Assembly (NCBI RefSeq): GCF_947495625.1
Contig: NZ_CANLZW010000013.1
Coordinates: 1 to 64,000 of the forward strand
Origin: an uncultured Cocleimonas sp.
Lineage (GTDB): Bacteria > Pseudomonadota > Gammaproteobacteria > Thiotrichales > Thiotrichaceae
Length of the DNA stretch: 64,000 nt
Direction: 5' to 3'
The notes under the pieces were generated by a model. The model searched no databases and had not been told where the DNA came from. It saw only the letters and a list, made by a program, of their open reading frames with translations. Of the stretch, positions 1 to 20,234 are shown in pieces; the first letter of the stretch is position 1; the number at the start of each line of letters is the position of its first letter. The translations under genes and the position numbers were made by a program.

Positions 1-1
1 A

Positions 2-106
2 GCCATCTGTGCTGTTATGCGTAAAATGCTGCTTGCTATGCATGGCATGTTGAAAGAGAACAAGCCTTTTGATGGTATACGGTTTTATGATTTAGTAGCA
101 TCGTGA
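2..106 (+). mobile_element. IS110-family transposase, C-terminal fragment (cut by window edge)
   Basis: An open frame runs in from the left edge and stops at TGA 104-106, giving 34 residues. The segment AVMRKMLLAMHGMLKENKPF resembles the conserved C-terminal end of IS110/IS1111-type transposases (A-x-x-RK-L-L followed by K-x-x-KPFD). Whether the rest of the gene is intact cannot be seen. No terminal inverted repeats were recognised downstream, which fits IS110 elements, as they often lack them. Confidence 0.6.
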
Positions 107-163
107 TCCATTAGTTTTTTCTATTCGAAATGGGATTATTTACTTGACGGTGAACAGAGTATC

Positions 164-210
164 TTTAAGGCACTTTTTTAATAAAAAGTGCCTTAAAGGT
201 GGGGGGTGTC
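164..210 (+). repeat. G6 element, copy 1, with perfect 15-bp hairpin
   Basis: Perfect arms TTTAAGGCACTTTTT (164-178) and AAAAAGTGCCTTAAA (183-197) enclose a 4-base loop and run into GGTGGGGGGTGTC (198-210). It lies between the transposase tail and the end of the metallohydrolase gene, both pointing into it, so the hairpin could also act as a bidirectional terminator. Confidence 0.75.
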
Positions 211-246
211 ATTTCTATTGAGTTAGGCTGTTCGTTTAGCGCAATA

Positions 247-1278
247 TCACTCTAGTTCTAATGATAAATAAACCTGAAATGCATTGCGTCGATTAGCGGC
301 TTCAAAAGCAGGTAATTTTGCGTACTTTGACCAATCTACTTCTTTGTAGGCTTCATCAAAATCAATCATCTCCTCCACGGCAATAGCCATTTTTTCACGC
401 ATATAGGCTAAATACTCTCGTGTTAATGTAATTGCTTTTTGCGGGTCTTTTGCCGCAGGGCCATGACCGGGAACCAATGCTGTTACCTGATTGGTTTCCA
501 GACTTTGCAAAGTCTCAAGCCAGTGTTTTGTATGGTTTCCTATAAAGGGCACTCGACCTTCAAACAGGATATCACCGGTAAAAAGCACCTTGTCGTTTTC
601 AACGAATAGGGTTAAATCAGCATCAGAGTGAGCTTTGCCAATGACATTGATGGTGAAATCAATATTGCCGACAGTAAACTTTTCCGTATCATCCAGAATC
701 GTATCGGGTTTGACGATGTAGGTGTTTTCATTCACCCAGGGGTCCAGTGAAAATTGTCTTTCTTCGAGTCGGCTACTGGCAACTTCTGAATCGATATATT
801 CATAAATACCATCTGGCGCAATAATTTCTGCGCCTTGTTCCTTGAATACCTGCAAGCCATAAATATGATCAGCGTGATAATGACTGACAACCACTTTAAC
901 GATAGGTTGATCCGTTATTTCACGTATTTTCTGCAGTAGCTTATTCGCTAAAGAAGGTGTTCCCAGCGCATCAAATAACACCACGCCAGCATCTGTGATT
1001 ACTACTCCAGCATTTGAGATAAAACCCGCATTATCCGTAGCGATACCTGCCTTGCCTTGGACGTAATAGCTGTGTTCGCCAACTTTAACTAGCTTCATAT
1101 CAACGTCAACATCTGCGTATTTAGACTTTACCGGAGTCGAAGTTTTATCAGAAGCTTCTGCCGCAATGGCATCACTTATAGGCATAAATTTGGTTTTACA
1201 ATAACTGCCAATGACCACGCTACTAATCACCATTGCGGCAAATAGGTAGAAAACTGAACGTGAGTTTTTTAATTTCAT
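247..1278 (-). CDS. MBL-fold metallo-hydrolase, membrane-anchored or exported
   Basis: A 343-residue metallo-beta-lactamase-fold hydrolase. An N-terminal hydrophobic segment (about residues 9-26) indicates export or anchoring. The zinc ligands are all visible: HYHADH at 133-138, His217 in AHSDAD, Asp236 in TGD and His272 in GHG. The substrate is not predictable from sequence; relatives include class B beta-lactamase-like and quinoprotein-associated hydrolases. It follows rsmG by 28 bp on the same strand, so it is probably the last gene of an mnmG-rsmG operon, a place where parA is common in gammaproteobacteria. A G6 repeat lies just beyond its stop codon. Confidence 0.85.
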   Translation of the reverse strand: MKLKNSRSVFYLFAAMVISSVVIGSYCKTKFMPISDAIAAEASDKTSTPVKSKYADVDVDMKLVKVGEHSYYVQGKAGIATDNAGFISNAGVVITDAGVVLFDALGTPSLANKLLQKIREITDQPIVKVVVSHYHADHIYGLQVFKEQGAEIIAPDGIYEYIDSEVASSRLEERQFSLDPWVNENTYIVKPDTILDDTEKFTVGNIDFTINVIGKAHSDADLTLFVENDKVLFTGDILFEGRVPFIGNHTKHWLETLQSLETNQVTALVPGHGPAAKDPQKAITLTREYLAYMREKMAIAVEEMIDFDEAYKEVDWSKYAKLPAFEAANRRNAFQVYLSLELE

Positions 1279-1306
1279 GTTTGGTCCTGTACTTAGTTTA
1301 AAGTTT

Positions 1307-1933
1307 TTACTTACTCATTGTAAATTCAAGTAAGTGACGCTCTCCATCAACAAAAGGAACGGTCATTGAATGTGATTGAGTCAATGTATATTGCTTAGGA
1401 ATATACTGTAATTCAGCTTCAGGATACTGTCCCTTCATGGCATATAAAATGCCATTTGCAGCAAGTGGTGCTGATGAGCCTTTAAGAAAGTCATACACAG
1501 AAGCAAATGCGCGACTAATAATCGCATCGTATTTGATATCAGAATCCCAGCTTTCTATGCGTGCTTGGGCAACCTTGGTATTTTTTAAACCCAACTCAAT
1601 AATCGCCTGTTGAATAAAACGGGTTTTTTTACCGTTTGTATCGACAGCCATAAACTCACGATCCGGCTGCATAATCGCCAATGGAATCGTAGGCAAACCC
1701 GCGCCACTGCCTACATCTAAACAGTTATCGCCTTTAATGAAATCAGCGACCACAAGGCTATCGAATATGTGTAAGGGAATCATATCCTCAACCTCACGAA
1801 CTGCTGTGAGGTTGTAGGTTTTATTCCAGCGATTAAGCATCTCAACGTATTGTTTAAGTTGCGATAATTGTGCTTCAGTAAGGTGGCAATCTAATTGTTT
1901 TAGACCTTGCTCCCAAAGTTGATCTTGCGACAC
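1307..1933 (-). CDS. rsmG: 16S rRNA (guanine(527)-N7)-methyltransferase RsmG
   Basis: RsmG (GidB) uses S-adenosylmethionine to methylate N7 of G527 in 16S rRNA; its loss gives low-level streptomycin resistance in other bacteria. The protein is 208 residues, the usual length. Family signatures are NKTYNLTA at 37-44 and the SAM-binding loop LDVGSGAGLP at 72-81. The gene starts 27 bp after the mnmG stop codon on the same strand, the classical mnmG-rsmG arrangement. This pair is normally close to the chromosomal origin in gammaproteobacteria. Confidence 0.97.
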   Translation of the reverse strand: MSQDQLWEQGLKQLDCHLTEAQLSQLKQYVEMLNRWNKTYNLTAVREVEDMIPLHIFDSLVVADFIKGDNCLDVGSGAGLPTIPLAIMQPDREFMAVDTNGKKTRFIQQAIIELGLKNTKVAQARIESWDSDIKYDAIISRAFASVYDFLKGSSAPLAANGILYAMKGQYPEAELQYIPKQYTLTQSHSMTVPFVDGERHLLEFTMSK

Positions 1934-1960
1934 GTATAAGGTTCTCTTTTATGAACTAGT

Positions 1961-3850
1961 CTAACTAGCTTTCTGATAACGGTGTTTCTTCAAATGCACC
2001 ATTAGAATAGAAATAGTCGCTGGTGTAATGCCAGGGATACGCGAAGCTTGTCCAATCGTCGTAGGCTTTTGATCTTGTAGCTTTTGTAATGCTTCATTAG
2101 AAAGGCCACCTTTGATCGTTGCGTAATCAAAATCATCCGGCAGAACTGTTTCTTCATGATTCTTTTGCTTATCAATTTCTAACTGTTGGCGATCGATATA
2201 ACCCGCGTATTTAAACTGTACTTCGACTTGCTCCGCAACTTTTGGGTCTTCAACCGCTGGACCAAATTTATCGATAGACATCAAATCAGCATAGCTAACG
2301 TTAGGTCTTCTCAATAATTCGTTTAAACGATATTCGCGACTTAAAGAGCCTTTGAAAATACGCTCATTCTGATCTGCGTTTACATCAGCAGGATGTAATA
2401 CGGTATCGCGTAAACGTTGCATTTCGAGTTCGACTTGCTCGCGTTTGATATTGAATGCGCGCCAGCGTTCTTCATCAACTAAGCCAATCTTGTAACCAAT
2501 TTCAGTTAAACGTAAATCTGCATTGTCTTCACGCAATAACAGACGATGCTCAGCACGGCTGGTGAACATACGGTAAGGCTCTTGCGTGCCGTGGGTGATT
2601 AAGTCATCAACCATTACACCGATATAAGCATCACTGCGTTTCGGGAACCATGAATCTTTACCCTGAACTTGAAGTGCTGCATTAGTCGCTGCAAGCAAAC
2701 CCTGAGCGCCAGCTTCTTCGTAACCGGTCGTGCCATTGATTTGACCAGCAAAAAACAGTCCATCAATAAATTTGGTTTCAAGCGTTGGTTTAAGATCGCG
2801 CGGATCAAAGAAATCATACTCGATCGCATAGCCAGGTCGGGTGATATGCGCGTTCTCAAAACCTTCGATAGAGCGAATAAATTCAAACTGCACATCAAAC
2901 GGCATACTGGTTGAAATACCGTTAGGGTAGATTTCGTAAGTATTTAAACCTTCAGGCTCGATGAATATCTGGTGACTGTCTTTATCTGCAAAGCGCACAA
3001 TCTTGTCTTCGATAGAAGGACAATAGCGTGGACCAACACCATCGATGACACCTGAATAAAGCGGCGAACGATCTAGGCTCGCACGAATAATGTCGTGGGT
3101 GCGCGAATTGGTGTATGTGATGTGACAAGAAATCTGCTCTGGGTGATCTTCCTTCTTTCCCATGTATGAAAACGTAGGAATAGGAGTATCGCCAGGCTGC
3201 TCTTGTAGTTTGCTGTAATCGATACTGCGCGAATCGATACGTGCAGGTGTTCCGGTTTTTAAACGGTCTACTCTAAACGGCATTTCGCGTAAACGATCAG
3301 CTAAAGCAATCGATGGTGGATCACCCATGCGCCCGCCGGAATGATTTTCCATACCGATGTGAATTTTACCGCCGAGGAAAGTTCCTACAGTAAGAACAAC
3401 GGCCTTGGCTTTGAATTTAAGACCCATTTCGGTACTCACACCAACCACTCGATCATTTTCAATAATTAAGTCGTCAACACCTTGCATAAAGATTTGAAGG
3501 TTTTCTTCGGCTTCGACCATTTCGCGAATTGCCGCTTTGTACAAAGAGCGATCAGCTTGTGCACGTGTTGCACGAACCGCTGGGCCTTTGCTCGCATTTA
3601 GCGTGCGAAACTGGATGCCGCCTTTATCAGCTGCATGAGCCATTGCACCACCCAGTGCATCGATTTCTTTTACGATATGGCCTTTGCCTATACCGCCGAT
3701 GGCAGGGTTACAACTCATCTGTCCAATGGTTTCAATATTATGGGTGAGTAATAATGTTTTCAGTCCCATGCGCGCAGGCGCAAGAGCAGCTTCAGTGCCG
3801 GCGTGACCGCCGCCGATGATAATGACATCGAAAGATTCTGTATAGAACAT
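1961..3850 (-). CDS. mnmG: tRNA uridine 5-carboxymethylaminomethyl modification enzyme MnmG
   Basis: MnmG (GidA) is an FAD protein that works with MnmE to make the 5-carboxymethylaminomethyl group on wobble uridine 34 of several tRNAs. At 629 residues it is full length. The FAD-binding GGGHAG motif is at residues 13-18 and the conserved CNPAIGG at 47-53. The C-terminal helical domain that contacts MnmE ends with the conserved SRIPGITPA segment. It is the first gene of a leftward operon with rsmG; mnmE is not in the window. Only 112 bp separate it from the divergent kinase-like gene, so its promoter lies there. Confidence 0.98.
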
Positions 3851-9869: not shown

Positions 9870-12014
9870 TTAAAAGTCCAATGAAACGGTTAAGCCAACA
9901 GTGCGTGGCTCGCCTTTTTGGGTGTAAGTTTCAGTAATGTAACCATTGCCTGGATTGTTACCAAAGCTACCAAAACCTCTCACATCATAGTCTTTATCGG
10001 TTAGATTTCTACCCCATAAGGTTGCTGTCCAATCACCTTTTTTATAACTCAAGTTAGCGTTTATCAGGCTGTAAGCTTTTGCTCTGGCATTGTGACGATC
10101 AGAGAAGTAGAAGCCGTCTTTGCCTTCAAGTGTTACCCCGGCGGTTAATTTTGGTGTGATCGAGTATTCAGCACCCAGAGAGTATTGATAGTTAGGCGCG
10201 TGCGCCTGATCTCTTCCTGCCAAATCCAAACCATTGGCGGTACTTTGCGGGTCTGTGTATTCATCAAACTTGGCTTGTAACAGGCCTAGTGAGGTCTTTA
10301 AACGCCATTTGTCGTTCACTTTCCAGTCAAGTTCCGCTTCGATACCGTAGTTGCTGCCTTTTGCTGCATTACCGATATAGTCGGTAAAGTCGGTACTACC
10401 ATCTTCACGAAGTTCAACGATAGAGCTTCTTACCTGCTGGTCTTTACGCTTGGCATAGAAGGCAGTAATACGAGTGGTTAGCGCATCGTGTAAGTAAGAT
10501 GAGTTAACCCCGACTTCGAAATTCCACAGGTATTCTGTATCAAAATCGAGTAGGTTCTCAGGCAATGTGCCATCGGTATTTACGCCACCCGCTTTGTAAC
10601 CACGAGAGATACTGGTGCTGGCCAAATGGTTGTCGTTAAGTTCATATTCCAGACCGAGTTTACCGCCATGCAGTGTTTCATCGACATTGATTTTGTTGTC
10701 GTTAGAATCGGTGTAATCGGCTTTCCATTTTTCTACACGCAAACCAGTGATGAGCTTAAGTTTGTCGTTGATTTCAGTGTCTAATTGACCATAAAACGCG
10801 GTGTTTTCAGTGTCATACTGGCTTAGGAAGTCGCTTTCTAAATAGGTGTACTTGCGCGTTAGTCCTTCCTCTTTTTTGGCATGATATAAGCCCACAACCC
10901 AGTCCGTTTTATCATTGAATATTCGTCCATCTTCATTAGAAAGTAGGCGTCCTTCAAGGCTGGTATTTTTGCGGTTACGTAGGTATTCATCGAAAGAACT
11001 ATATGGATAAAGGTCTTCAGAGAATTGTCCAACATATCCCCAGTCTTCATCATAGCTGTAACCAAGATCTGAATCTGAGTAGCTTGCGCTGGCTTCAAGA
11101 GCCACTGAAGAATTGATATCCAGCAATGCTTTTAAAGAGATAGCATCCGTTTTTTGCGTGTCTTTGCCTGGCTCATCACTCAATGTGGTGCGGCTGTTAT
11201 CAAATGTGAATGCGTCATAGCCGTTATCGATATCAAGATGTAATACTTTTAGGTCGACGGTTAGGTCGTCATTTGCCAGCCATTTAAGGTGTCCGCGTCC
11301 GGTAAATTCATCACGGTCTGCTGTGTCATCACGATCGAGGAAATCATTTTCCATGAAGCCATCTGATTGGTTGGTATGCAGTGAGAAACGCCCCAGTAAT
11401 TTGTCTTTAATTAACGGACCACCAGCTGCTATACCTAGGCTTTGCTTACCGTAGTTGCCTAAGGTTGCTTCAATCTTTCCTGAGCGTTCGTTGGTAGGTT
11501 CGGTAGAGTGAATATTGATAATACCAGCCAATGCATTTGCGCCGTATTTAGTGCCTTGTGGGCCACGAATTACTTCTATCTGATCGACATCAAACAGCGT
11601 TGCAGAACCACCACTGCGGCTGAAGTCCATACCGTCTATATACAAACCCACAGAAGGGTTGATCGGAGAAATAAACTGGCTGCGTTCACCAATACCACGA
11701 ATCTGGAAATAACGAGATCGAGATGCGCCGCTTGCCATATTGACATTAGGTGCAGCATTCAAGGTGTCTTCAATATGCTGAGCGCCACGTTTCTTTATCT
11801 CTTCTTCAGTTACTACCGAAATACTCGCTGTGCTTTCTTCTAAAGTAGTAGGGCGGAAATCCGCTGTGACGGTCACTTCTTCGAGAACATCAGCGGCGTT
11901 TGCGCTAAAGCTTGTTAGCAATGGAGCAAGGACTAGAATTGATGCGGATACACTCGTTAATGCTAATGAAAAACGTGCGGGCAGTTTGGTTTGTGATGGC
12001 ACTTGAAATGGCAT
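9870..12014 (-). CDS. TonB-dependent outer-membrane receptor, probable thiamine/precursor uptake
   Basis: A 714-residue TonB-dependent receptor: signal peptide ending about residue 40 (SANA), a TonB-box-like EEVTVTAD just after it, a plug domain with RGAQHIEDTLNAAPNVN, IRGIGERSQF and EVIRGPQGTKYGANALAGII, then a 22-strand barrel ending in a C-terminal phenylalanine (TVSLDF). The TPP riboswitch in its leader and the two downstream thiamine genes indicate that it imports thiamine or a related compound. The start is supported by AGGAG shortly upstream of the ATG. Confidence 0.92.
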   Translation of the reverse strand: MPFQVPSQTKLPARFSLALTSVSASILVLAPLLTSFSANAADVLEEVTVTADFRPTTLEESTASISVVTEEEIKKRGAQHIEDTLNAAPNVNMASGASRSRYFQIRGIGERSQFISPINPSVGLYIDGMDFSRSGGSATLFDVDQIEVIRGPQGTKYGANALAGIINIHSTEPTNERSGKIEATLGNYGKQSLGIAAGGPLIKDKLLGRFSLHTNQSDGFMENDFLDRDDTADRDEFTGRGHLKWLANDDLTVDLKVLHLDIDNGYDAFTFDNSRTTLSDEPGKDTQKTDAISLKALLDINSSVALEASASYSDSDLGYSYDEDWGYVGQFSEDLYPYSSFDEYLRNRKNTSLEGRLLSNEDGRIFNDKTDWVVGLYHAKKEEGLTRKYTYLESDFLSQYDTENTAFYGQLDTEINDKLKLITGLRVEKWKADYTDSNDNKINVDETLHGGKLGLEYELNDNHLASTSISRGYKAGGVNTDGTLPENLLDFDTEYLWNFEVGVNSSYLHDALTTRITAFYAKRKDQQVRSSIVELREDGSTDFTDYIGNAAKGSNYGIEAELDWKVNDKWRLKTSLGLLQAKFDEYTDPQSTANGLDLAGRDQAHAPNYQYSLGAEYSITPKLTAGVTLEGKDGFYFSDRHNARAKAYSLINANLSYKKGDWTATLWGRNLTDKDYDVRGFGSFGNNPGNGYITETYTQKGEPRTVGLTVSLDF

Positions 12015-12102
12015 GCTGTACTCCTAAAAATAAAAATGGGATAGGAGACATGCTTGGTAGATTCATAGCTTTAAATGACAAAGCTAGATCGAGAAAGACA
12101 TT

Positions 12103-12219
12103 ACCTATCCCTACGCTGGTATTATCCAGATCAGGTTCTTAGGGTTTTCCTCACGGAATCTCAGGTTACGTTGAATTTATAAATCATATTAAAATAAATA
12201 CAACAACCACCCCCAGGCG
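12103..12219 (-). promoter_or_regulatory. TPP riboswitch (THI box) of the TonB receptor operon
   Basis: Read on the minus strand, the aptamer contains CCTGGGGGTG, CTGAGA (12159-12164), AACCTGATCTGGATAAT and ACCAGCGTAGGGAT, the conserved TPP-binding parts. P1 pairs CCT with AGG. The GGGATAGG at its 3' end is perfectly complementary to CCTATCCC further downstream in the leader, which is followed by a T-rich run. This suggests an alternative fold that links binding to expression. Confidence 0.93.
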
Positions 12220-12282
12220 ATGGCGGTTAGTATAGTAGACATTTATAGAAGTGCAAGATTTATGATGAAGGTGCTCATAAAA

Positions 12283-12310
12283 GACACCCCCCTACTTATA
12301 GGCACTTTTT
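12283..12310 (-). repeat. G6 element, copy 5, at the thiQ stop codon
   Basis: Minus-strand reading AAAAAGTGCCTATAAG followed by TAGGGGGGTGTC. It abuts and overlaps the thiQ stop codon and has the same orientation as the gene. Confidence 0.85.
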
Positions 12311-13059
12311 TATATAGAATTGTTAGATCTGGTATCACCAAGATATTGTTTAATCACATCGTCTGAGGAATCCTCCAGCACTTCCGCTGTATTCCCGATG
12401 CGATGTATTCTTCCTTGGTTAATAAAGGCCGTACGTTTTGAGGCACGAAAAGCATCTGAGGGTTGATGGCTTATAAGTAGTGCAACCATATTTTGTTCTG
12501 CAACCATGGTCTTTAATAGATCGATAATCTCATCTTTCATTGCTGGGCCGAGCGCAGCAAGGGGTTCGTCGAGCAGTAAAACGGTCTGTTTTCTAACGAG
12601 TGCTCTTGCTAGGGCTACACGTTGGCGCTGACCACCAGATAGTTCTTTCGGGCGACGTTTGTGTAGATCCGCTAAACCAACGCTTTCTAAGGCATGGTTA
12701 ATATGCTGTTTCTCATCTTGATTGAGCTTTAACGAGGGTTGAATACCAATAGCAACGTTAGTAAAAACATCGAGATGAGGGAAAAGGTTATTGTCTTGAA
12801 AAACAGTTGTGACTGGACGCTGATGGATTTTTAGCGCGGTGATATCTACATTATCAACAAGAATTTTTCCTGCATTTGGTGTGTTAAAACCCGCAATTAA
12901 ATTAAGTAGGGTCGTTTTGCCTGAACCGCTAGGTCCAATGATGCTTAATATTTCACCTGCTTGAACATCGAGATTGAATAACATCTCTGCTTTATCTGAG
13001 TCACTCGAACTACTTGAGTTATTTAAATAACTGAAACTAAGATTATCTACGGTTAGCAT
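12310..13059 (-). CDS. thiQ: Thiamine ABC transporter ATP-binding protein ThiQ
   Basis: The ATPase of the ThiBPQ importer for thiamine and thiamine phosphates. It has 249 residues with Walker A GPSGSGKT (42-49), signature LSGGQ (140-144), Walker B LLLDEP (161-166) and the H-loop His188. The D-loop, normally SALD, reads AALG with Gly171 in place of aspartate, an unusual change. A poly-serine loop (15-19) is inserted after the first strand. The ATG overlaps the thiP stop codon by one base (TAATG), so the two are translationally coupled. It is the last gene of the operon. Confidence 0.93.
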   Translation of the reverse strand: MLTVDNLSFSYLNNSSSSSDSDKAEMLFNLDVQAGEILSIIGPSGSGKTTLLNLIAGFNTPNAGKILVDNVDITALKIHQRPVTTVFQDNNLFPHLDVFTNVAIGIQPSLKLNQDEKQHINHALESVGLADLHKRRPKELSGGQRQRVALARALVRKQTVLLLDEPLAALGPAMKDEIIDLLKTMVAEQNMVALLISHQPSDAFRASKRTAFINQGRIHRIGNTAEVLEDSSDDVIKQYLGDTRSNNSI

Positions 13060-14636
13060 TACAAATCCCTCTGCGTTTTACCGCCAATAATTTTCTCTAA
13101 AAGCCAGAAAGTGATGAGACTAATCAGCAGCAAGAAAGCTGCAGTAACCGCTGCTTGTGGTATTTGGTAAGCACCTAAACGTTGGTAAAGTAATAACGGT
13201 AAAGTTGCTGTTTCCGGGCTGCCAAATAAAGCGATAATACCTAAATCCCCCATGGTGAAAACAGTCACAAGTGCTGCAGATAAGCCCAGCGGTTTTCTTA
13301 AAAGAGGAAAGTCTAGATGTTTGAAACGCTGCCAGCCTTTTAAATTCAGGCTGTCGCAAAGTCGTTGATATTTCATTGTGTTTTGTCTGATTTCTGGCCC
13401 TAGCGTGCGAATAATAAAGGGAATGCCGAGTAAGCCATTAATAAGAATGACGATCAAAATCGCCCAATCAAAGACGTTGATAAAGTCAGCCAGAAGAATA
13501 AAAAGCCCTGTGCCAATTACTAATGGTGGCACCACGAAAATAATAGATCCAGAAAGCAATAACCATTGTGAAAGGTTACTTTTGTTTTGGTAGCTTGCTC
13601 GAGCACTGGCATTTAATAAAAACCAGGAGAGTATCAGTGAAATAGTTGCTGCACTCAAACCAATTACTAAACTGAATGCAGTCGCCATCCACAGATTTCT
13701 TTCACTGAGTACGCTGATGATTGGGCCTCTTGCTGCATCGATAAAAATAGCGAGAAGAGGGGTGCTTACAAACAATATTGCGAATACGATAAACGTGATT
13801 TGTAGTATTTTATCTAACTTGCCAGTTTCGGATTGGTGCTTGGCATTTTTGATATTTAGGTCGGGTTCTACATCTGGTATTTTGTTGAAACGAGAAGCAA
13901 TTATAGCCACCAGTATAGATAATCCCAATTGTAGTAATGCTAAAACAACCGCCTGTGCAGGATCAAAATCAAATCGTAAAGACTGGTAAATGGCGACTTC
14001 TACGGTTGTGCTCTTAGGACCACCACCGAGGGTTAACACGACGGCAAAACTCGTCAGGCACAACATAAAAATCAAAAGTGCGACACTGGGTAAACTCTCG
14101 CGTAAGGCGGGCCATTCGATATGTTTCCATTGCTGAGTGCTGTTAAATTTTAACTGTGATGCAATGCGCCAATGTTGCTCGGGTATTTGATTCCAAACGG
14201 GTACGAATAAACGCACAGCGAGCGGTAAATTGAAAAATACATGAGCCAGCAAAATGCCAAAAAGCCCGTATAGGTTTGAGCCTATGGGTAACCAGCCAGA
14301 TTTACCGTAAACTGTAATGATACCTATGACGGCAACCACGGCTGGCACAATTAAAGGCAATCCAAATAAGCTAAGAAAGAAAGAGCGAAAGGGGAAGTTT
14401 GGATAACGTGCAAAAGCACGGGATACGATGATCGCCAAAGTGATGCTTAACAGTGTCGAGAGGAATGCTTGCCATAAGCTGAAAAATAAAACTCGGCGAA
14501 TATAGCTGCTGTTCCAAATCTCACTCAAGCTCGCTGTTTGCTCTCCTGAAAGTGTGCCGCTAGCCAAAAACAGACTAAATAAAGGCACCGTGATAAAAGC
14601 AATGACGAACAGCGCAACAAAGATTCCGGCTTTCAT
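13059..14636 (-). CDS. thiP: Thiamine ABC transporter permease ThiP
   Basis: A 525-residue inner-membrane permease with two fused transport domains, each of about six helices and each bearing a cytoplasmic EAA-type loop (WPALRESLP in the first half, FPLLRKPLG in the second). This duplicated arrangement and length are typical of ThiP. It lies 29 bp after thiB and overlaps thiQ by one base. The thiBPQ operon is headed by its own TPP riboswitch, which confirms the substrate. Confidence 0.93.
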   Translation of the reverse strand: MKAGIFVALFVIAFITVPLFSLFLASGTLSGEQTASLSEIWNSSYIRRVLFFSLWQAFLSTLLSITLAIIVSRAFARYPNFPFRSFFLSLFGLPLIVPAVVAVIGIITVYGKSGWLPIGSNLYGLFGILLAHVFFNLPLAVRLFVPVWNQIPEQHWRIASQLKFNSTQQWKHIEWPALRESLPSVALLIFMLCLTSFAVVLTLGGGPKSTTVEVAIYQSLRFDFDPAQAVVLALLQLGLSILVAIIASRFNKIPDVEPDLNIKNAKHQSETGKLDKILQITFIVFAILFVSTPLLAIFIDAARGPIISVLSERNLWMATAFSLVIGLSAATISLILSWFLLNASARASYQNKSNLSQWLLLSGSIIFVVPPLVIGTGLFILLADFINVFDWAILIVILINGLLGIPFIIRTLGPEIRQNTMKYQRLCDSLNLKGWQRFKHLDFPLLRKPLGLSAALVTVFTMGDLGIIALFGSPETATLPLLLYQRLGAYQIPQAAVTAAFLLLISLITFWLLEKIIGGKTQRDL

Positions 14637-14665
14637 GGTTTGTATTGATTATCTAACTGGATAAC

Positions 14666-15670
14666 TTACTGAGCTAAAGCATTCAACCATTCGCTTACCC
14701 ATGCTTTACGGTTTTTATTCACCTCATCGCTTGAGAAAATAAGGGCTGGTTCTGGATCAATCAGCGTATTAAATGCTTCTGGTAATTCAGATTTGGCCAG
14801 TGCAGCGGGATACATCCAGTTCGTTGTTGGAATGATTTTCTGGAATGTTTCGCCTTGAATAAAGCCCAGGAACTTCTTTGCCAGTTCCTTGTTTTTACTC
14901 GCAGCGATCATTCCTGCTACTTCAATTTGCTGATAATGACCTTCCGAAAATTTAGCGGCGGCAAAGTTGTTCTTTTCTTCAGCAATCATGTGATATGCAG
15001 GTGAGGTGGTGTAGCTTAAAACCAATGGTGCTTCGTCTTTTAAAAATAATCCGTATGCTTCGCTCCAGCCCTTGCTGACAGTCACAATACGCGGTGCTAG
15101 TTTTTCCCATGCTTCTTCGGCTTTATCGCCATAGACTTTTTTTACCCACAATAATAAGCCTAACCCTGGGGTGCTGGTTCTTGGGTCTTGAATCAAAATC
15201 TTCGGTGAGTCTGGGTTTTCAATCAGTGCTTTAAGACTGGTAGGTGGATTCTTTAACTTGTCTTTGTCATAAACAAAAGCAAAGTAGCCGAAGTCGTAAG
15301 GGATAAAATGTGAATTTGTCCATTTTTCAGGCAGTGTCGAATTTTCAAGCGCCATTTCGTGTGGAGCAAAGTATCCAGTTGCTTCTGCATTCGCCATTAA
15401 ATTGGTATCTAAACCCAAGACGATATCGGCTTTGGTATGCCTGCCTTCGAGCTTCAATCGGCTCAGTAGGGAAACACCGTCTTCTAATGCGACGTATTTT
15501 AATTCGCAGTCGCAAACCTCTTCAAAGGCGGTTTTAACTTTTGGTCCGGGCCCCCAATCACTGGTAAAAGAATCGTAGGTATAAACTATTAATGTGGGTT
15601 TTTCTGCAGATATTGCACTGCTTAATAAGGGGAACTGAAAGATAAAAATAAACAGGTAAAAAAAACGCAT
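14666..15670 (-). CDS. thiB: Thiamine ABC transporter substrate-binding protein ThiB
   Basis: A 334-residue periplasmic binding protein with a signal peptide ending about residue 22. The family start LIVYTYDSFTSDWGPGPKVK follows directly. Segments IPYDFGYFAFVYDK and DPRTSTPGLGLLLW are typical of ThiB, whose aromatic residues stack on thiamine, TMP or TPP. It is the first gene of thiBPQ, directly downstream of a TPP riboswitch, so it should be repressed when the coenzyme is plentiful. Confidence 0.95.
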   Translation of the reverse strand: MRFFYLFIFIFQFPLLSSAISAEKPTLIVYTYDSFTSDWGPGPKVKTAFEEVCDCELKYVALEDGVSLLSRLKLEGRHTKADIVLGLDTNLMANAEATGYFAPHEMALENSTLPEKWTNSHFIPYDFGYFAFVYDKDKLKNPPTSLKALIENPDSPKILIQDPRTSTPGLGLLLWVKKVYGDKAEEAWEKLAPRIVTVSKGWSEAYGLFLKDEAPLVLSYTTSPAYHMIAEEKNNFAAAKFSEGHYQQIEVAGMIAASKNKELAKKFLGFIQGETFQKIIPTTNWMYPAALAKSELPEAFNTLIDPEPALIFSSDEVNKNRKAWVSEWLNALAQ

Positions 15671-16574: not shown

Positions 16575-17249
16575 ATGGCTAAATTAGACAACAGTTCAAA
16601 AATATCCAGTGTGCTATTCGATTTAGATGGTACGCTATTGGATACCGCTCCAGACATGACAAATGCCCTAAACCTTCTTTTAGCAGAAGAGGATAAAGCA
16701 CCTCTAACTACTGCGTTTTGTAGAGATTTCGTATCGCATGGATCGGTTGCGATGGTCACTCTAGGTTTTGGAGAACAACAAAATCCAGATGAATTCGAAC
16801 GTCGTCGTCTCCGTTTCCTGCATTTATACGAGAGAAACCTGTGTTTGGATACAAAACTTTTCGAAGGTATGGATGAAGTGTTGCTTTTTCTGGAAGAAAA
16901 CTACATTCGGTGGGGCATTGTGACCAATAAACCGGCTTTTTTAACGAATCCCTTATTAGAACAGTTAAAACTATCGCAAAGAGCTTGTAGCATCATTTCA
17001 GGTGACTCGATTCCAGAAAGAAAACCTGATCCTGCGCCCCTTTATTTAGCTGCCAGTCAATGCGGGAGCCTAGCTACTGAATGTATCTATGTTGGTGATG
17101 CAGAGCGTGATATTGAAGCGGGCAATCGTGCAAATATGCAAACACTTATCGCTAGCTATGGTTATATTGATGACTCTCAAACCCCTGTTAATTGGGGGGC
17201 AAATGGCGTGATTGAGTATCCTGATGAAATTTTACCCTGGCTTAACTAA
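16575..17249 (+). CDS. HAD-superfamily phosphatase (Gph/MupP type)
   Basis: A 224-residue HAD subfamily IA hydrolase. Motif I is FDLDGTLLD with nucleophile Asp16 and general acid Asp18; motif II is VTNKP; motifs III/IV are KPDPAPL and YVGDAERDIEAGN. The length and motifs fit phosphoglycolate phosphatase or the closely related N-acetylmuramic acid 6-phosphate phosphatase MupP. Sequence alone does not separate these. The first methionine follows the divergent promoter region shared with the thioredoxin-like gene. Confidence 0.88.
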   Translation: MAKLDNSSKISSVLFDLDGTLLDTAPDMTNALNLLLAEEDKAPLTTAFCRDFVSHGSVAMVTLGFGEQQNPDEFERRRLRFLHLYERNLCLDTKLFEGMDEVLLFLEENYIRWGIVTNKPAFLTNPLLEQLKLSQRACSIISGDSIPERKPDPAPLYLAASQCGSLATECIYVGDAERDIEAGNRANMQTLIASYGYIDDSQTPVNWGANGVIEYPDEILPWLN

Positions 17250-17461
17250 TAAATTTTCTACGTTTACTTATATTTATTCAATTTGAGTGCGACTTTGATT
17301 TAAGCCTTTATTTTATTGAAAGTTAAGCATTAATTGTTTTTTTGTTTGACTGTAATTATGTGATTTCCCTAAAATAGTAATGACTAATATTTGAGCAAAT
17401 TGTCACAGCGTGTCATTATAGCCGTCAGTCAAATGCTTTGATCCCGGGGGAAGGGCAAACA

Positions 17462-18466
17462 ATGAATATTGGTAAAAGCAGTGCCAAGAGCACTTTAATT
17501 CAAGTTGTTGTTTTTTTAATCGCCTTTGCGTTATTAATTCTCTATAAAAAAGACACTATTGTAGGCATGTACGCGTCGGGCGAGATCAGTAAAACCGGCA
17601 TGATTATCAATGGCATTATTTTTGCCTTGTTTTTTGTTGGTATGCTAAGAATAGTTTTAGTACTTTTTCGCTATATCAATGAACAAAGAGTTCTTTTTCA
17701 ACTCACCGAATATTTAAAAGAAAATGCTCAAGATCCAACAGCAAGACTACAGCAAAATTCTTTGGCTGTTAGCCGTTATAAAGCAGTTCGCTGGTTAGCG
17801 AGGCAGGGTTCTCCAATCAATCAAGAAGCACTGGCATCGAGTTCTAATGCACATGAAAATTCCCGTTTAACCTTAATCCGCTTTGTCCACAGCACGTTAA
17901 TTCTTGCCGGTGTATTCGGTACTGTTGTTTCTTTATCGATGGCACTTATTGGTGCGGCAGGTTTACTTAATTCTCCTGAAGGTGTTAAGGAAATGGGCGC
18001 TATTATCAGCGGAATGTCATCAGCGCTTAGCTCTACCATTACAGCGATAGTGTGCTTCTTTGTGTTTGCTTATTTTTATCTTCGATTAAACGATGCGCGT
18101 ATTCAGCTGTTAACTCAGATTGAAGATATGACCAGTATGTATCTGATTCCAAGTGTTTCTCATACGGAAGAGGGCATGATTCACAAAGTTGCAGAATTAA
18201 CCAATGCGCTAAATCAAGCCGCAGAAAAATTGTTAATGGTCGAAGACAGATTTATTCTGGCAGGAGATCGTTTACAACAAGCGGTTAATGAATTACATGG
18301 ACAAGTAAAAAGCTCGAGTCTTGATGATATTAAAGATCTGATTCGAAAAGGTTTTCATTTGTCTGAGCCTGAATATGATTCTGAAAAGCTTACGGATCAA
18401 AATAAGCCTGCCATTGAGTTGGCACAAAAATCTGATAGTGATATTAAAGTCGCAGACCTTAAATAG
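17462..18466 (+). CDS. MotA/TolQ/ExbB-type proton-channel subunit
   Basis: A 334-residue membrane protein with four hydrophobic segments in the MotA/TolQ/ExbB arrangement: two near the N-terminus, then a cytoplasmic loop of about 90 residues, then a pair with small residues (LTLIRFVHSTLILAGVFGTV and SALSSTITAIVCFFVFAYFY). The C-terminal tail is cytoplasmic and contains a short coiled coil. An in-frame TTG lies 24 bp upstream, but ATG 17462 sits 6 bp after a GGGGGAAGGG ribosome site and is preferred. It is followed 10 bp later by its partner. This is probably a proton- or sodium-driven motor or transducer whose cargo is unknown. Confidence 0.75.
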   Translation: MNIGKSSAKSTLIQVVVFLIAFALLILYKKDTIVGMYASGEISKTGMIINGIIFALFFVGMLRIVLVLFRYINEQRVLFQLTEYLKENAQDPTARLQQNSLAVSRYKAVRWLARQGSPINQEALASSSNAHENSRLTLIRFVHSTLILAGVFGTVVSLSMALIGAAGLLNSPEGVKEMGAIISGMSSALSSTITAIVCFFVFAYFYLRLNDARIQLLTQIEDMTSMYLIPSVSHTEEGMIHKVAELTNALNQAAEKLLMVEDRFILAGDRLQQAVNELHGQVKSSSLDDIKDLIRKGFHLSEPEYDSEKLTDQNKPAIELAQKSDSDIKVADLK

Positions 18467-18476
18467 GGAGACTTAG

Positions 18477-20234
18477 ATGAACTACGGTTACCCAGGGTCG
18501 AATACCCATTTAGAAAATCATAATGTAAATGAAGAGAGTTTCTGGCCTTCATTTACCGATATTATGATGGTCATTGTGATGGTGTTTCTACTGGTCACAG
18601 TCGCCGTTATTCTCAATAACTGGACGCTAATTTCTGAATTAAAGACCAGTATTAATGCGCAACATATTGCATCGGATTTGGCTGAAAATCGCCAAGAAAA
18701 AAATCAGACACTTGCAGCAAGACTTTCTAATTTAGAAAAACAGTTGGTAACTCTAAACCAGAAATATGAAGTTGAAAAAGCCAGTCTTGCAGATACCAAA
18801 GAAAAGCTCAGTAGTACCACTCAGAATTTAACGGCTAAATCTACTTTACTCACCTCGATTGAGGAGCAGCTAAAATCACTAAATACTAAATACGAAACTG
18901 AAAAAGCTAATTTACTGAGTACTAATGAGAAGCTTACAGATACTGATAAGCGCTTGCTAAACACCAACCAACAACTATCCACTACGAAACAACAGTTAAG
19001 CGAGAAGACTGCTGAAATAACGGCTTTAAATGAAAAGCTTTCTGCATTAACCGCTAAAAATGAAGCGACTGTAAGTACACTGACTGACACACAAACTAAT
19101 CTAAAAAATACACAAACTTCTTTAAAAGAAGTACAAACAAAACTATTAACAAGTGAAAATGTTAACAAAGAAAATGAGTCGTTAATCGCAACGTTAAAGA
19201 CAGATTTAGATGGTGTAAAAAGTGAGAAACTTGCTCTTTCAAAAGATAATGCCAGTTTAAAAACTAACCTTGCTCAGAATGAAGTACTAATCCAAGAAAA
19301 TACTGCACAGATTCAAGAAAAAACTGCATCAATAACCGCTTTGAAAGCAGACTTATCTAATTCTAAACAAGAAAATCTAAAGCTTACTGAGGTCACTGCG
19401 ACTCAAAAAGAAAAAATCACTGTCGCTTTAAATCAAGAAAAAGTATTGAATGAAAAATTGCTTACAAGTGAAAAAGCGTTAAAAGTTTTAGAGCAGTCGA
19501 AACAATCGAACTTAGCTGAAATCAAGCAGCTTAAAGATTCAGCCTCTTCCAGCGTGGCAATGCTGCAATCCTTACAAAGTAATCGTAATAGTCTTGATGA
19601 TAAATATAATTCATTAGCCTCTAATCTGGAAAGTACCAATGAGGCTTTAGAGAAAGAACGAGCTACTTCTAAAAATCTACAGCAGCAATTAGTGGCTCTT
19701 CAAAATCGCCTTGAAAAAACACAAACAGATAAAGAAAAACAAGGAACAGTCGAGCAAACGCTAACACAGCAACTGGACGAGAAAGCGAAAGAATTAGCTA
19801 AACTAACAGCAAGCATCGAAGAATCACAAAAGCAGCTTAAAGTAAAAGAAGAGCAAATCGCTTCACTTAAACAAGATCAAGAAGCAGGGAACAGCCAACT
19901 AAGAAGCTTGCAGGGTGAGTACGATACTCTGGACAGTAAGTATCAGAAATTACTACGTCCAGCGCGTTCATCAAAAGGTAAATACATTGCCAGCGTTACT
20001 TATAAGAAGAGAGGCGGAAAAACGATTATTCGATTTAAATCCGATCCGAGTGGTAGTTATAAGACAGTATCTTCTAAAGAGTTAGCCAGCGGCTTAGAAG
20101 CATTAAAAAAGAAGCACAAAGAGAATCTTTACATCAAAGTTGTGATTCCTGAGAATAGTGGGTTGTCATACAACGAAGCCTGGAAGTTTACGAGTAACTT
20201 ACAGAGAAAATACGACTATTACTTCCAGAACTAA
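18477..20234 (+). CDS. MotB/ExbD-like protein with long periplasmic coiled coil
   Basis: A 585-residue protein. The N-terminus has SFWPSFTDIMMVIVMVFLL with Asp28 at the start of the single transmembrane helix, the place of the ion-carrying aspartate in MotB, ExbD and TolR. Residues of about 55-490 are an almost uninterrupted coiled coil with many repeats rich in Thr, Lys, Leu and Glu. The last about 80 residues form a small folded domain (YIASVTYKKRGGKTIIRFK … SGLSYNEAWKFTSNLQ) that looks ExbD-like rather than OmpA-like. GGAG precedes the ATG. Together with the upstream gene it forms a stator-like pair distinct from flagellar MotAB. Confidence 0.7.
   Translation: MNYGYPGSNTHLENHNVNEESFWPSFTDIMMVIVMVFLLVTVAVILNNWTLISELKTSINAQHIASDLAENRQEKNQTLAARLSNLEKQLVTLNQKYEVEKASLADTKEKLSSTTQNLTAKSTLLTSIEEQLKSLNTKYETEKANLLSTNEKLTDTDKRLLNTNQQLSTTKQQLSEKTAEITALNEKLSALTAKNEATVSTLTDTQTNLKNTQTSLKEVQTKLLTSENVNKENESLIATLKTDLDGVKSEKLALSKDNASLKTNLAQNEVLIQENTAQIQEKTASITALKADLSNSKQENLKLTEVTATQKEKITVALNQEKVLNEKLLTSEKALKVLEQSKQSNLAEIKQLKDSASSSVAMLQSLQSNRNSLDDKYNSLASNLESTNEALEKERATSKNLQQQLVALQNRLEKTQTDKEKQGTVEQTLTQQLDEKAKELAKLTASIEESQKQLKVKEEQIASLKQDQEAGNSQLRSLQGEYDTLDSKYQKLLRPARSSKGKYIASVTYKKRGGKTIIRFKSDPSGSYKTVSSKELASGLEALKKKHKENLYIKVVIPENSGLSYNEAWKFTSNLQRKYDYYFQN

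Follow-up and report, generated by a model that had tools for sequence, protein, structure and literature searches.

An unnamed stator-like gene pair of Gammaproteobacteria whose inner subunit carries a coiled coil that varies in length in heptad-compatible steps

Bacteria use ion-driven motors of the 5:2 type to swim and glide, to secrete, to take up nutrients, to maintain the outer membrane and to fend off phages. In the Zorya system, a long tail of the subunit ZorA lies in the cytoplasm, and both this tail and the binding of ZorB to the cell wall are needed for function (PMC11890865). In GldL-GldM it is the inner subunit, GldM, that bears a long periplasmic element, a shaft of 18 nm (PMC9389320), and a newly reported type of inner subunit, found in the TPH-vWA motor partners, carries a vWA domain (PMC12204202). 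A survey from 2025 describes the non-flagellar relatives of these motors as very diverse in structure, with functions that are for the most part unknown (PMC12505986), and more envelope systems that use 5:2 motors are said to await discovery (PMC12204202, PMC12505986). Here we describe a pair of adjacent genes, A and B, found in a 64,000-nucleotide stretch of DNA (the window; positions 1 to 64,000 of contig NZ_CANLZW010000013.1, assembly GCF_947495625.1) from an uncultured Cocleimonas sp. of the gammaproteobacterial family Thiotrichaceae. The pair is widespread, vertically kept and unnamed, and by fold and motifs it is a member of the MotA/TolQ/ExbB superfamily of 5:2 motors. We put a probability of about 0.55 on the reading that A and B together form an ion-driven 5:2 motor in which the coiled coil of B, locked in register, is a shaft or tether that leads to a partner in the envelope.

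Both genes lie on the plus strand, as do all features given below unless stated otherwise. Subunit A, an outer subunit of the MotA/ExbB/TolQ/ZorA type, is encoded at 17462..18466 (334 amino acids), and subunit B, an inner subunit of the MotB/ZorB type with a long coiled coil and a C-terminal domain, at 18477..20234 (585 amino acids); a first-pass annotation of the window had correctly placed a stator-like pair at 17462-20234. A gap of 10 bp separates the stop of A (18466) from the start of B (18477), and at most homologous loci the two genes nearly touch or overlap by 4 bases. The start of A was set at the ATG at 17462; an in-frame TTG is present at 17438 too, but ATG is the start in most homologues. 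The genome is Cocleimonas-like, with A being 94% identical to its counterpart in Cocleimonas flava DSM 24830.

Subunit A has four predicted membrane helices followed by a helical cytoplasmic tail. It just passes the Pfam model PF01618 (MotA_ExbB), with 23.3 bits against a gathering score of 22.9, and the same model is matched by 45 of 51 A homologues (E <= 0.01). An AlphaFold2 model of the A monomer, built on an alignment of the 51 homologues, has a mean predicted local distance difference test (pLDDT) score of 81.7, and its predicted fold is that of the outer subunits of 5:2 motors. When this model was compared with the PDB using Foldseek, the top matches were ExbB, TolQ, PomA and MotA chains, with ZorA at rank 50; the probabilities were close to 1.0, but the E-values were 1.6e-3 and up, none falling below 1e-3. 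No GldL chain was among the 50 PDB matches listed, no direct comparison with GldL or GldM having been made, and a search of PDB sequences with A returned low-scoring, unrelated matches only. The model, the PF01618 match and the Foldseek results together bear out the initial description of A as a four-helix MotA/ExbB-like protein. Two threonines that face the pore by position, Thr154 in the motif GVFGTV (17921..17923) and Thr192 (18035..18037), are present in 51 of 51 homologues, as are Gly150, Gly153, Arg105 and Glu74, and the position of Thr154 within its motif suggests that it corresponds to the Thr/Ser ring of ExbB and ZorA. The cytoplasmic tail, about 60 residues long and with a heptad periodicity of its own (mean power 8.9 at 3.5), has a tip that reads GFHL in the window and GFRL in the family (residues 297-300; 18350..18361); here G297 and F298 are found in all 51 homologues, position 299 is R or H, and the L is kept in 49.

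The single transmembrane helix of B (WPSFTDIMMVIVMVFLLVTVAVILNN; 18543..18620), delimited from the sequence and an alignment of 23 homologues, contains the putative ion-binding aspartate, Asp28 (codon GAT, 18558..18560). Counted in a way that did not require an Asp, which avoids circularity, this residue is present in 92 of 92 homologues with a readable motif (88 found automatically and four with WPT or WPG variants, leaving out one fragment and two loci without a match); the conservation of Asp28, on which the first-pass annotation had staked its proposal, is thus complete in this set. Asp28 would face Thr154 and Thr192 of A. When compared with the ZorB profile using hhalign, the N-terminal 75 residues of B gave a probability of 88%.

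Between this helix and the C-terminal domain, B carries a coiled coil of 440 residues (B 49-488; 18621..19940), close to the roughly 430 residues first estimated for the MotB-like partner, and identified by its periodicity, the absence of proline, its phase and the quantisation of its length. At 0.1485 nm per residue, the value used for all spans, it would measure about 65 nm if straight. The periodicity of its hydrophobic residues has its maximum at exactly 3.50 residues, where the power of 44.5 is far beyond the highest value of 9.7 reached in 500 shuffles, and the heptad phase stays at 93-134 degrees from end to end, which implies no net stutter; the signal is weak near coil residues 224-300. 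There is no proline in the window coil or in 18,347 coil residues of the family. Coil length, taken as the distance separating two fixed motifs, ranges from 146 to 545 residues over 87 distinct B proteins. A very long coil, as seen in the window, is not the hallmark of the family, since in 33 of 51 homologues the coil has 150-188 residues, which would span 22-28 nm, while the longest coil would reach 81 nm. Within one sampled genus, the total length of B is 315 amino acids at one locus (L108), 617 at another (L105) and 701 at a third (L107), a more than two-fold range.

The lengths taken modulo 7 leave a remainder of 6 in 64 of the 87 proteins, of 3 in 18 and of another value in five. With each of the 35 distinct lengths counted once, the remainders are non-uniform for modulus 7 (p = 1.4e-10), while all other moduli from 3 to 13 give p >= 0.38. 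Because related proteins are not independent, we also took 34 non-overlapping phylogenetic contrasts on a tree of the conserved ends of B, and found that the two lengths differ by whole heptads in 20 contrasts, by 3 or 4 modulo 7 in 13, and otherwise in one. The p-value is 2.3e-9 for whole heptads, a result independent of pooling, and 1.4e-11 for the three classes together, where the pooling of 3 and 4 with 0 modulo 7 was a post hoc choice; a step of 4 modulo 7 is as produced by a hendecad or a stutter. In the closest pair, the coils of the window (440) and of C. flava (433) are one heptad apart. Since the steps are heptad-compatible, the coils lack proline and the range of lengths is wide, we conclude that selection keeps the continuity and the heptad register of the coil and leaves its length free to drift, and this freedom in register-preserving steps suggests that the coil works as a mechanical shaft or tether. 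Tandem repeats at the DNA level were rejected as a source of the coil, only two weak short arrays being present, and matches of B to SMC, Rad50, JetC and crescentin were set aside as reflecting coiled-coil composition and not homology.

The coil leads into a family-specific C-terminal domain of about 97 residues (B 489-585; 19941..20231), defined using a 51-sequence alignment and AlphaFold2. In this alignment no other part of B save the membrane helix is as well conserved as this domain, whereas the coil is not conserved; the domain is marked by the motifs YxKLxRPxRS and SGLSYNEAWxFT...YDYY. Modelled as a monomer (pLDDT 91), the domain is predicted to have the order strand-strand-(strand)-helix-strand-helix, bb(b)aba, which resembles that of ExbD minus the last strand. 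It had initially been called ExbD-like, a description that was not upheld by any significant match in Pfam, PDB sequence, profile or fold searches. PF02472 (ExbD/TolR) is matched by three of 51 members, at best with 0.0096; a hidden Markov model (HMM) of the TolR/ExbD periplasmic domain gives a top score of 8.2 bits against 5.3 in decoys, which is not significant (E ~0.045); and neither ExbD nor TolR is among the 50 best structures listed for the model. We regard 'ExbD-like' as a fair guess. An OmpA-like identity likewise finds no Pfam or PDB sequence match and no example among the 50 best structures listed, a PDB sequence search with the domain gave low-scoring, unrelated matches only, and fold matches to ribosomal uS11, integrases and pantothenate kinase were discarded as too weak (E >= 0.088, TM < 0.4).

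To follow the distribution of the pair, we used profiles of A and of the end domain to search 369 genomes of the class, in which matches were either very strong or absent. The A profile was found in 56 genomes and the end-domain profile in 55; these are the same genomes save one (G366), which has a partial A match only (3.6e-12), and the end domain was found only together with A. There is one copy per genome, apart from pieces at contig breaks, and A and B are adjacent in 52 of 53 loci, with the 53rd (L115) carrying B too. In the window's family the pair is present in 31 of 36 genomes, its own included (30 of the 35 others), and two families belonging to another class of the phylum have it as well. 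No match to it was found among 72,556 records of plasmids and 50,697 of phages; for this reason, and because the pair is single-copy throughout the window's family, an origin in mobile elements or defence islands was rejected. Beyond the barely passed PF01618, no named-family model reaches its cut-off, and no description of the pair was found in the open-licence literature; it has probably been overlooked since the common model species lack it.

In an IQ-TREE phylogeny of A, these proteins form a group of their own, distinct from TolQ/ExbB and MotA (97/97 support, recovered in 98% of bootstrap trees). The nearest group is ZorA, with mixed support (96/78) and long branches, and in profile comparisons A likewise scores 90% with ZorA and 69% with TolQ/ExbB; the value of 0.2% against MotA is uninformative, as the MotA set contained mis-started frames and TolQ against MotA also gave 10%. 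The tree, the neighbouring genes and the absence of matches over cut-off led us to reject membership of Tol, Exb or Mot. The proposal of an uncharacterised stator-like pair of 5:2 type, which a match to a named Tol, Exb or Mot family would have contradicted, therefore stands: no Tol, Exb, Mot or Zor family is matched over cut-off, and the proteins form their own clade.

We read the pair as a 5:2 motor because of the fold of A, the invariance of Asp28, Thr154 and Thr192, and the strict co-occurrence of A and B; the stoichiometry, the rotation and the periplasmic location of the coil are inferred from homology to characterised motors. In the proposed mechanism, a pentamer of A would surround a dimer of B in the inner membrane, with Asp28 of B and the invariant Thr154 and Thr192 of A forming the ion path, and ion flow would turn A and B relative to each other. 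Outside the membrane the two B chains would run through the periplasm as a single, uninterrupted parallel coiled coil, at the end of which the C-terminal domain may grip an envelope partner, either peptidoglycan or a component associated with the outer membrane; both the distal partner and the side on which output occurs are guesses. The coil would bear torsion as a shaft or tether, with selection keeping it continuous and in heptad register while its length drifts, a role favoured because of the heptad quantisation, the freedom from proline and the presence of a conserved distal domain on an unconserved coil.

Three observations weigh against this mechanism. The freedom in length (22 to 81 nm) is at odds with a shaft that reaches a target at fixed depth, a straight rod of 65 nm is too long to stand upright in a normal periplasm, and no neighbouring gene is conserved family-wide in the 53 loci. 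An ordinary periplasm is about 22-28 nm deep, so that the initial suggestion that the coil spans the periplasm fits the common coils but not the straight coil of the window; the long forms must be tilted, flat or folded, unless the periplasm is wide. It is unlikely that these long forms are rods whose length is set to reach the outer membrane, because 65 nm exceeds the ordinary periplasm and because the total length of B varies more than two-fold within one sampled genus. The pair may nevertheless, as first suggested, exert force on the outer membrane or cell wall. The stronger version of the mechanism, in which the pairs are undescribed rotary envelope motors whose inner subunit is a torsionally rigid, register-locked drive shaft of 22 to 81 nm that carries torque to the end domain and its envelope partner, is one we put forward tentatively. 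If true, it would provide a natural set of shafts of different lengths on one motor. The coil as it stands is an unusual natural experiment, with the same motor bearing shafts of ~22 to 81 nm whose lengths differ nearly always by steps that fit the heptad, and it makes directly testable whether these motors pass torque through a rigid axle.

The most serious competitor to a shaft or tether, the less probable of the two though not decided against by the data, is an anchored motor with a cytoplasmic output, as proposed for Zorya. Here B would be fixed to the wall by its end domain, with the coil as no more than an adjustable anchor line, and the A ring with its GFRL-tipped tail would turn or shift and so act on a partner in the cytoplasm. 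The heptad-patterned tail of A and its invariant GF end are conserved in the way expected of a binding site, and the closest relatives by profile, and weakly by tree, are ZorA and ZorB, which require the ZorA tail and wall binding by ZorB (PMC11890865). A free coil length is also better suited to an anchor than to a shaft of fixed reach, and mildly favours it, whereas the strict register speaks for a load-bearing rod. Against this reading, the end domain is not OmpA/Pal-like, no gene for a conserved cytoplasmic partner lies nearby in the 53 loci, and at ~60 residues the A tail is far shorter than that of ZorA, which runs to hundreds. The two systems share the motor Asp on the inner subunit and a helical tail on the outer one, but here the long coil is on B. 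The first-pass annotation drew this contrast correctly as regards the long cytoplasmic tail of ZorA, although A too has a short, heptad-patterned cytoplasmic tail. The same kinship could make the pair a diverged Zorya-type anti-phage system, and indeed 20 of 51 A homologues weakly match ZorA models (best 1.5e-6) and B weakly matches the ZorB3 model (4.4e-5). We think this very improbable: the A of the window has no PADLOC or NCBIfam ZorA match, no Zorya effector gene (ZorC/D, ZorE, ZorF/G) stands beside the pair in the 53 loci, where some neighbours are unannotated, and the pair is inherited vertically, with one copy in almost every genome of the window's family and no match in the plasmid and phage records; moreover, B lacks the OmpA-like end domain of ZorB, and A its partner's long tail.

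We give equally little credence to the pair being an ordinary TolQR/ExbBD paralogue that has an overgrown linker and acts together with transducers of the TolA or TonB kind, in spite of the GxFGTV and threonine pore motifs and the ExbB/TolQ-like predicted fold of A, and of the small strand-helix end domain on B with its faint TolR/ExbD signal. The genome already holds TolQRA and three ExbBD pairs, and while its true tolQRA and exbBD-tonB loci have tolA or tonB, no such gene is conserved beside the pair; moreover, the tree separates A from TolQ/ExbB, homology of the end domains is not detectable, and a coil of 146-545 residues intervenes between the membrane and the end of B. Less probable still is a gated ion channel or sensor, in which the coil would pass envelope strain to open the pore without producing force. 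Conservation of register is also what a rod carrying a conformational signal should show, and the pair is self-contained, but nothing in the analysis points specifically to gating and the characterised members of the fold with an Asp/Thr pore are all treated as motors (PMC9389320, PMC12505986). Among the remaining relatives, MotA-MotB and PomA-PomB share the A fold, the four predicted membrane helices and the Asp on B, but the B end domain here lacks an OmpA-like wall-binding domain. The TPH-vWA partners likewise combine a motor Asp with an unusual periplasmic part, differing in their vWA end domain and in that no coil has been reported for them.

Inner subunits with a long element in the periplasm have precedents in GldM, in PRK09039-type proteins and in a ZorB-like protein at another sampled locus. 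The likeness to GldL-GldM, drawn from its description, is one of working principle, the GldM shaft being made of globular domains and not of coiled coil. Proteins of the PRK09039 type (NF006542/NF006543) have one membrane helix and then a coil, and B matches them over residues 19-162 (2.5e-5), but its score of 23.5 bits is far under the cut-off of 388. Known PRK09039-type peptidoglycan-binding proteins end in an OmpA-like domain. The ZorB-like protein (L213:539-1582, minus strand; 347 amino acids) has a coiled stretch of ~90 residues before an OmpA-like domain.

Conserved neighbours across genomes, which had been suggested as a check, were sought in the 53 loci, and none was found beyond A and B themselves, the others being housekeeping genes specific to a lineage. 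A gph-like HAD phosphatase (Pfam HAD_2) lies upstream of the pair in the window, at 16575..17249, and such a gene is present at nine of the 53 loci, each of them belonging to the family of the window; within this family only, the HAD phosphatase, a thioredoxin-like protein, MinCDE and RmuC are shared near the pair. In Thiothrix-like relatives (L040-L043, L046) the pair is downstream of minCDE, the thioredoxin-like gene, the HAD phosphatase and rmuC, a stable block centred on genes for the placement of cell division. At five loci his genes are near the pair. At four loci (L081, L083, L092 and L094) a gene of the MlaC family (PF05494; 3.2e-32 for L092) is directly upstream of A, a possible hint towards outer-membrane lipid upkeep. 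Promoter and terminator scans stayed at chance level.

Across the 369 genomes, strong carriers of MotA_N (75) and carriers of the pair (56) have one genome in common where 11 are expected (Fisher p = 2e-5); this statistic ignores shared ancestry, MotA_N does not cover every flagellar stator, and the near-exclusion is only a lead. MotA_N (PF20560) is also absent from the window's own genome. The same genome holds a second uncharacterised stator-like set (G000:C1:8907-9125; L005, genes 1108-2906), which comprises a 215-amino-acid MotA/ExbB-type protein, a 219-amino-acid protein with a PFID membrane motif and no Pfam match, and a 163-amino-acid membrane protein. A third such set (G000:C3:157892-158173; L006, genes 1-2241, minus strand) lies beside an ankyrin-repeat protein and consists of a 341-amino-acid MotA/ExbB-type protein followed by proteins of 204 and 174 amino acids without a Pfam match; most of the other genomes sampled from the genus have matches of similar size and score. 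Two TonB-like proteins of this genome (L003:1-1058 and L004:28-1053) have long simple-repeat spacers, (EP)n in one and VVEPVVEP in the other. Finally, on the minus strand of the window at 9870-15670, a gene resembling an outer-membrane receptor stands beside an ABC importer (an ATPase, a 525-amino-acid double permease and a binding protein), a set that by eye resembles a thiamine-type uptake operon.

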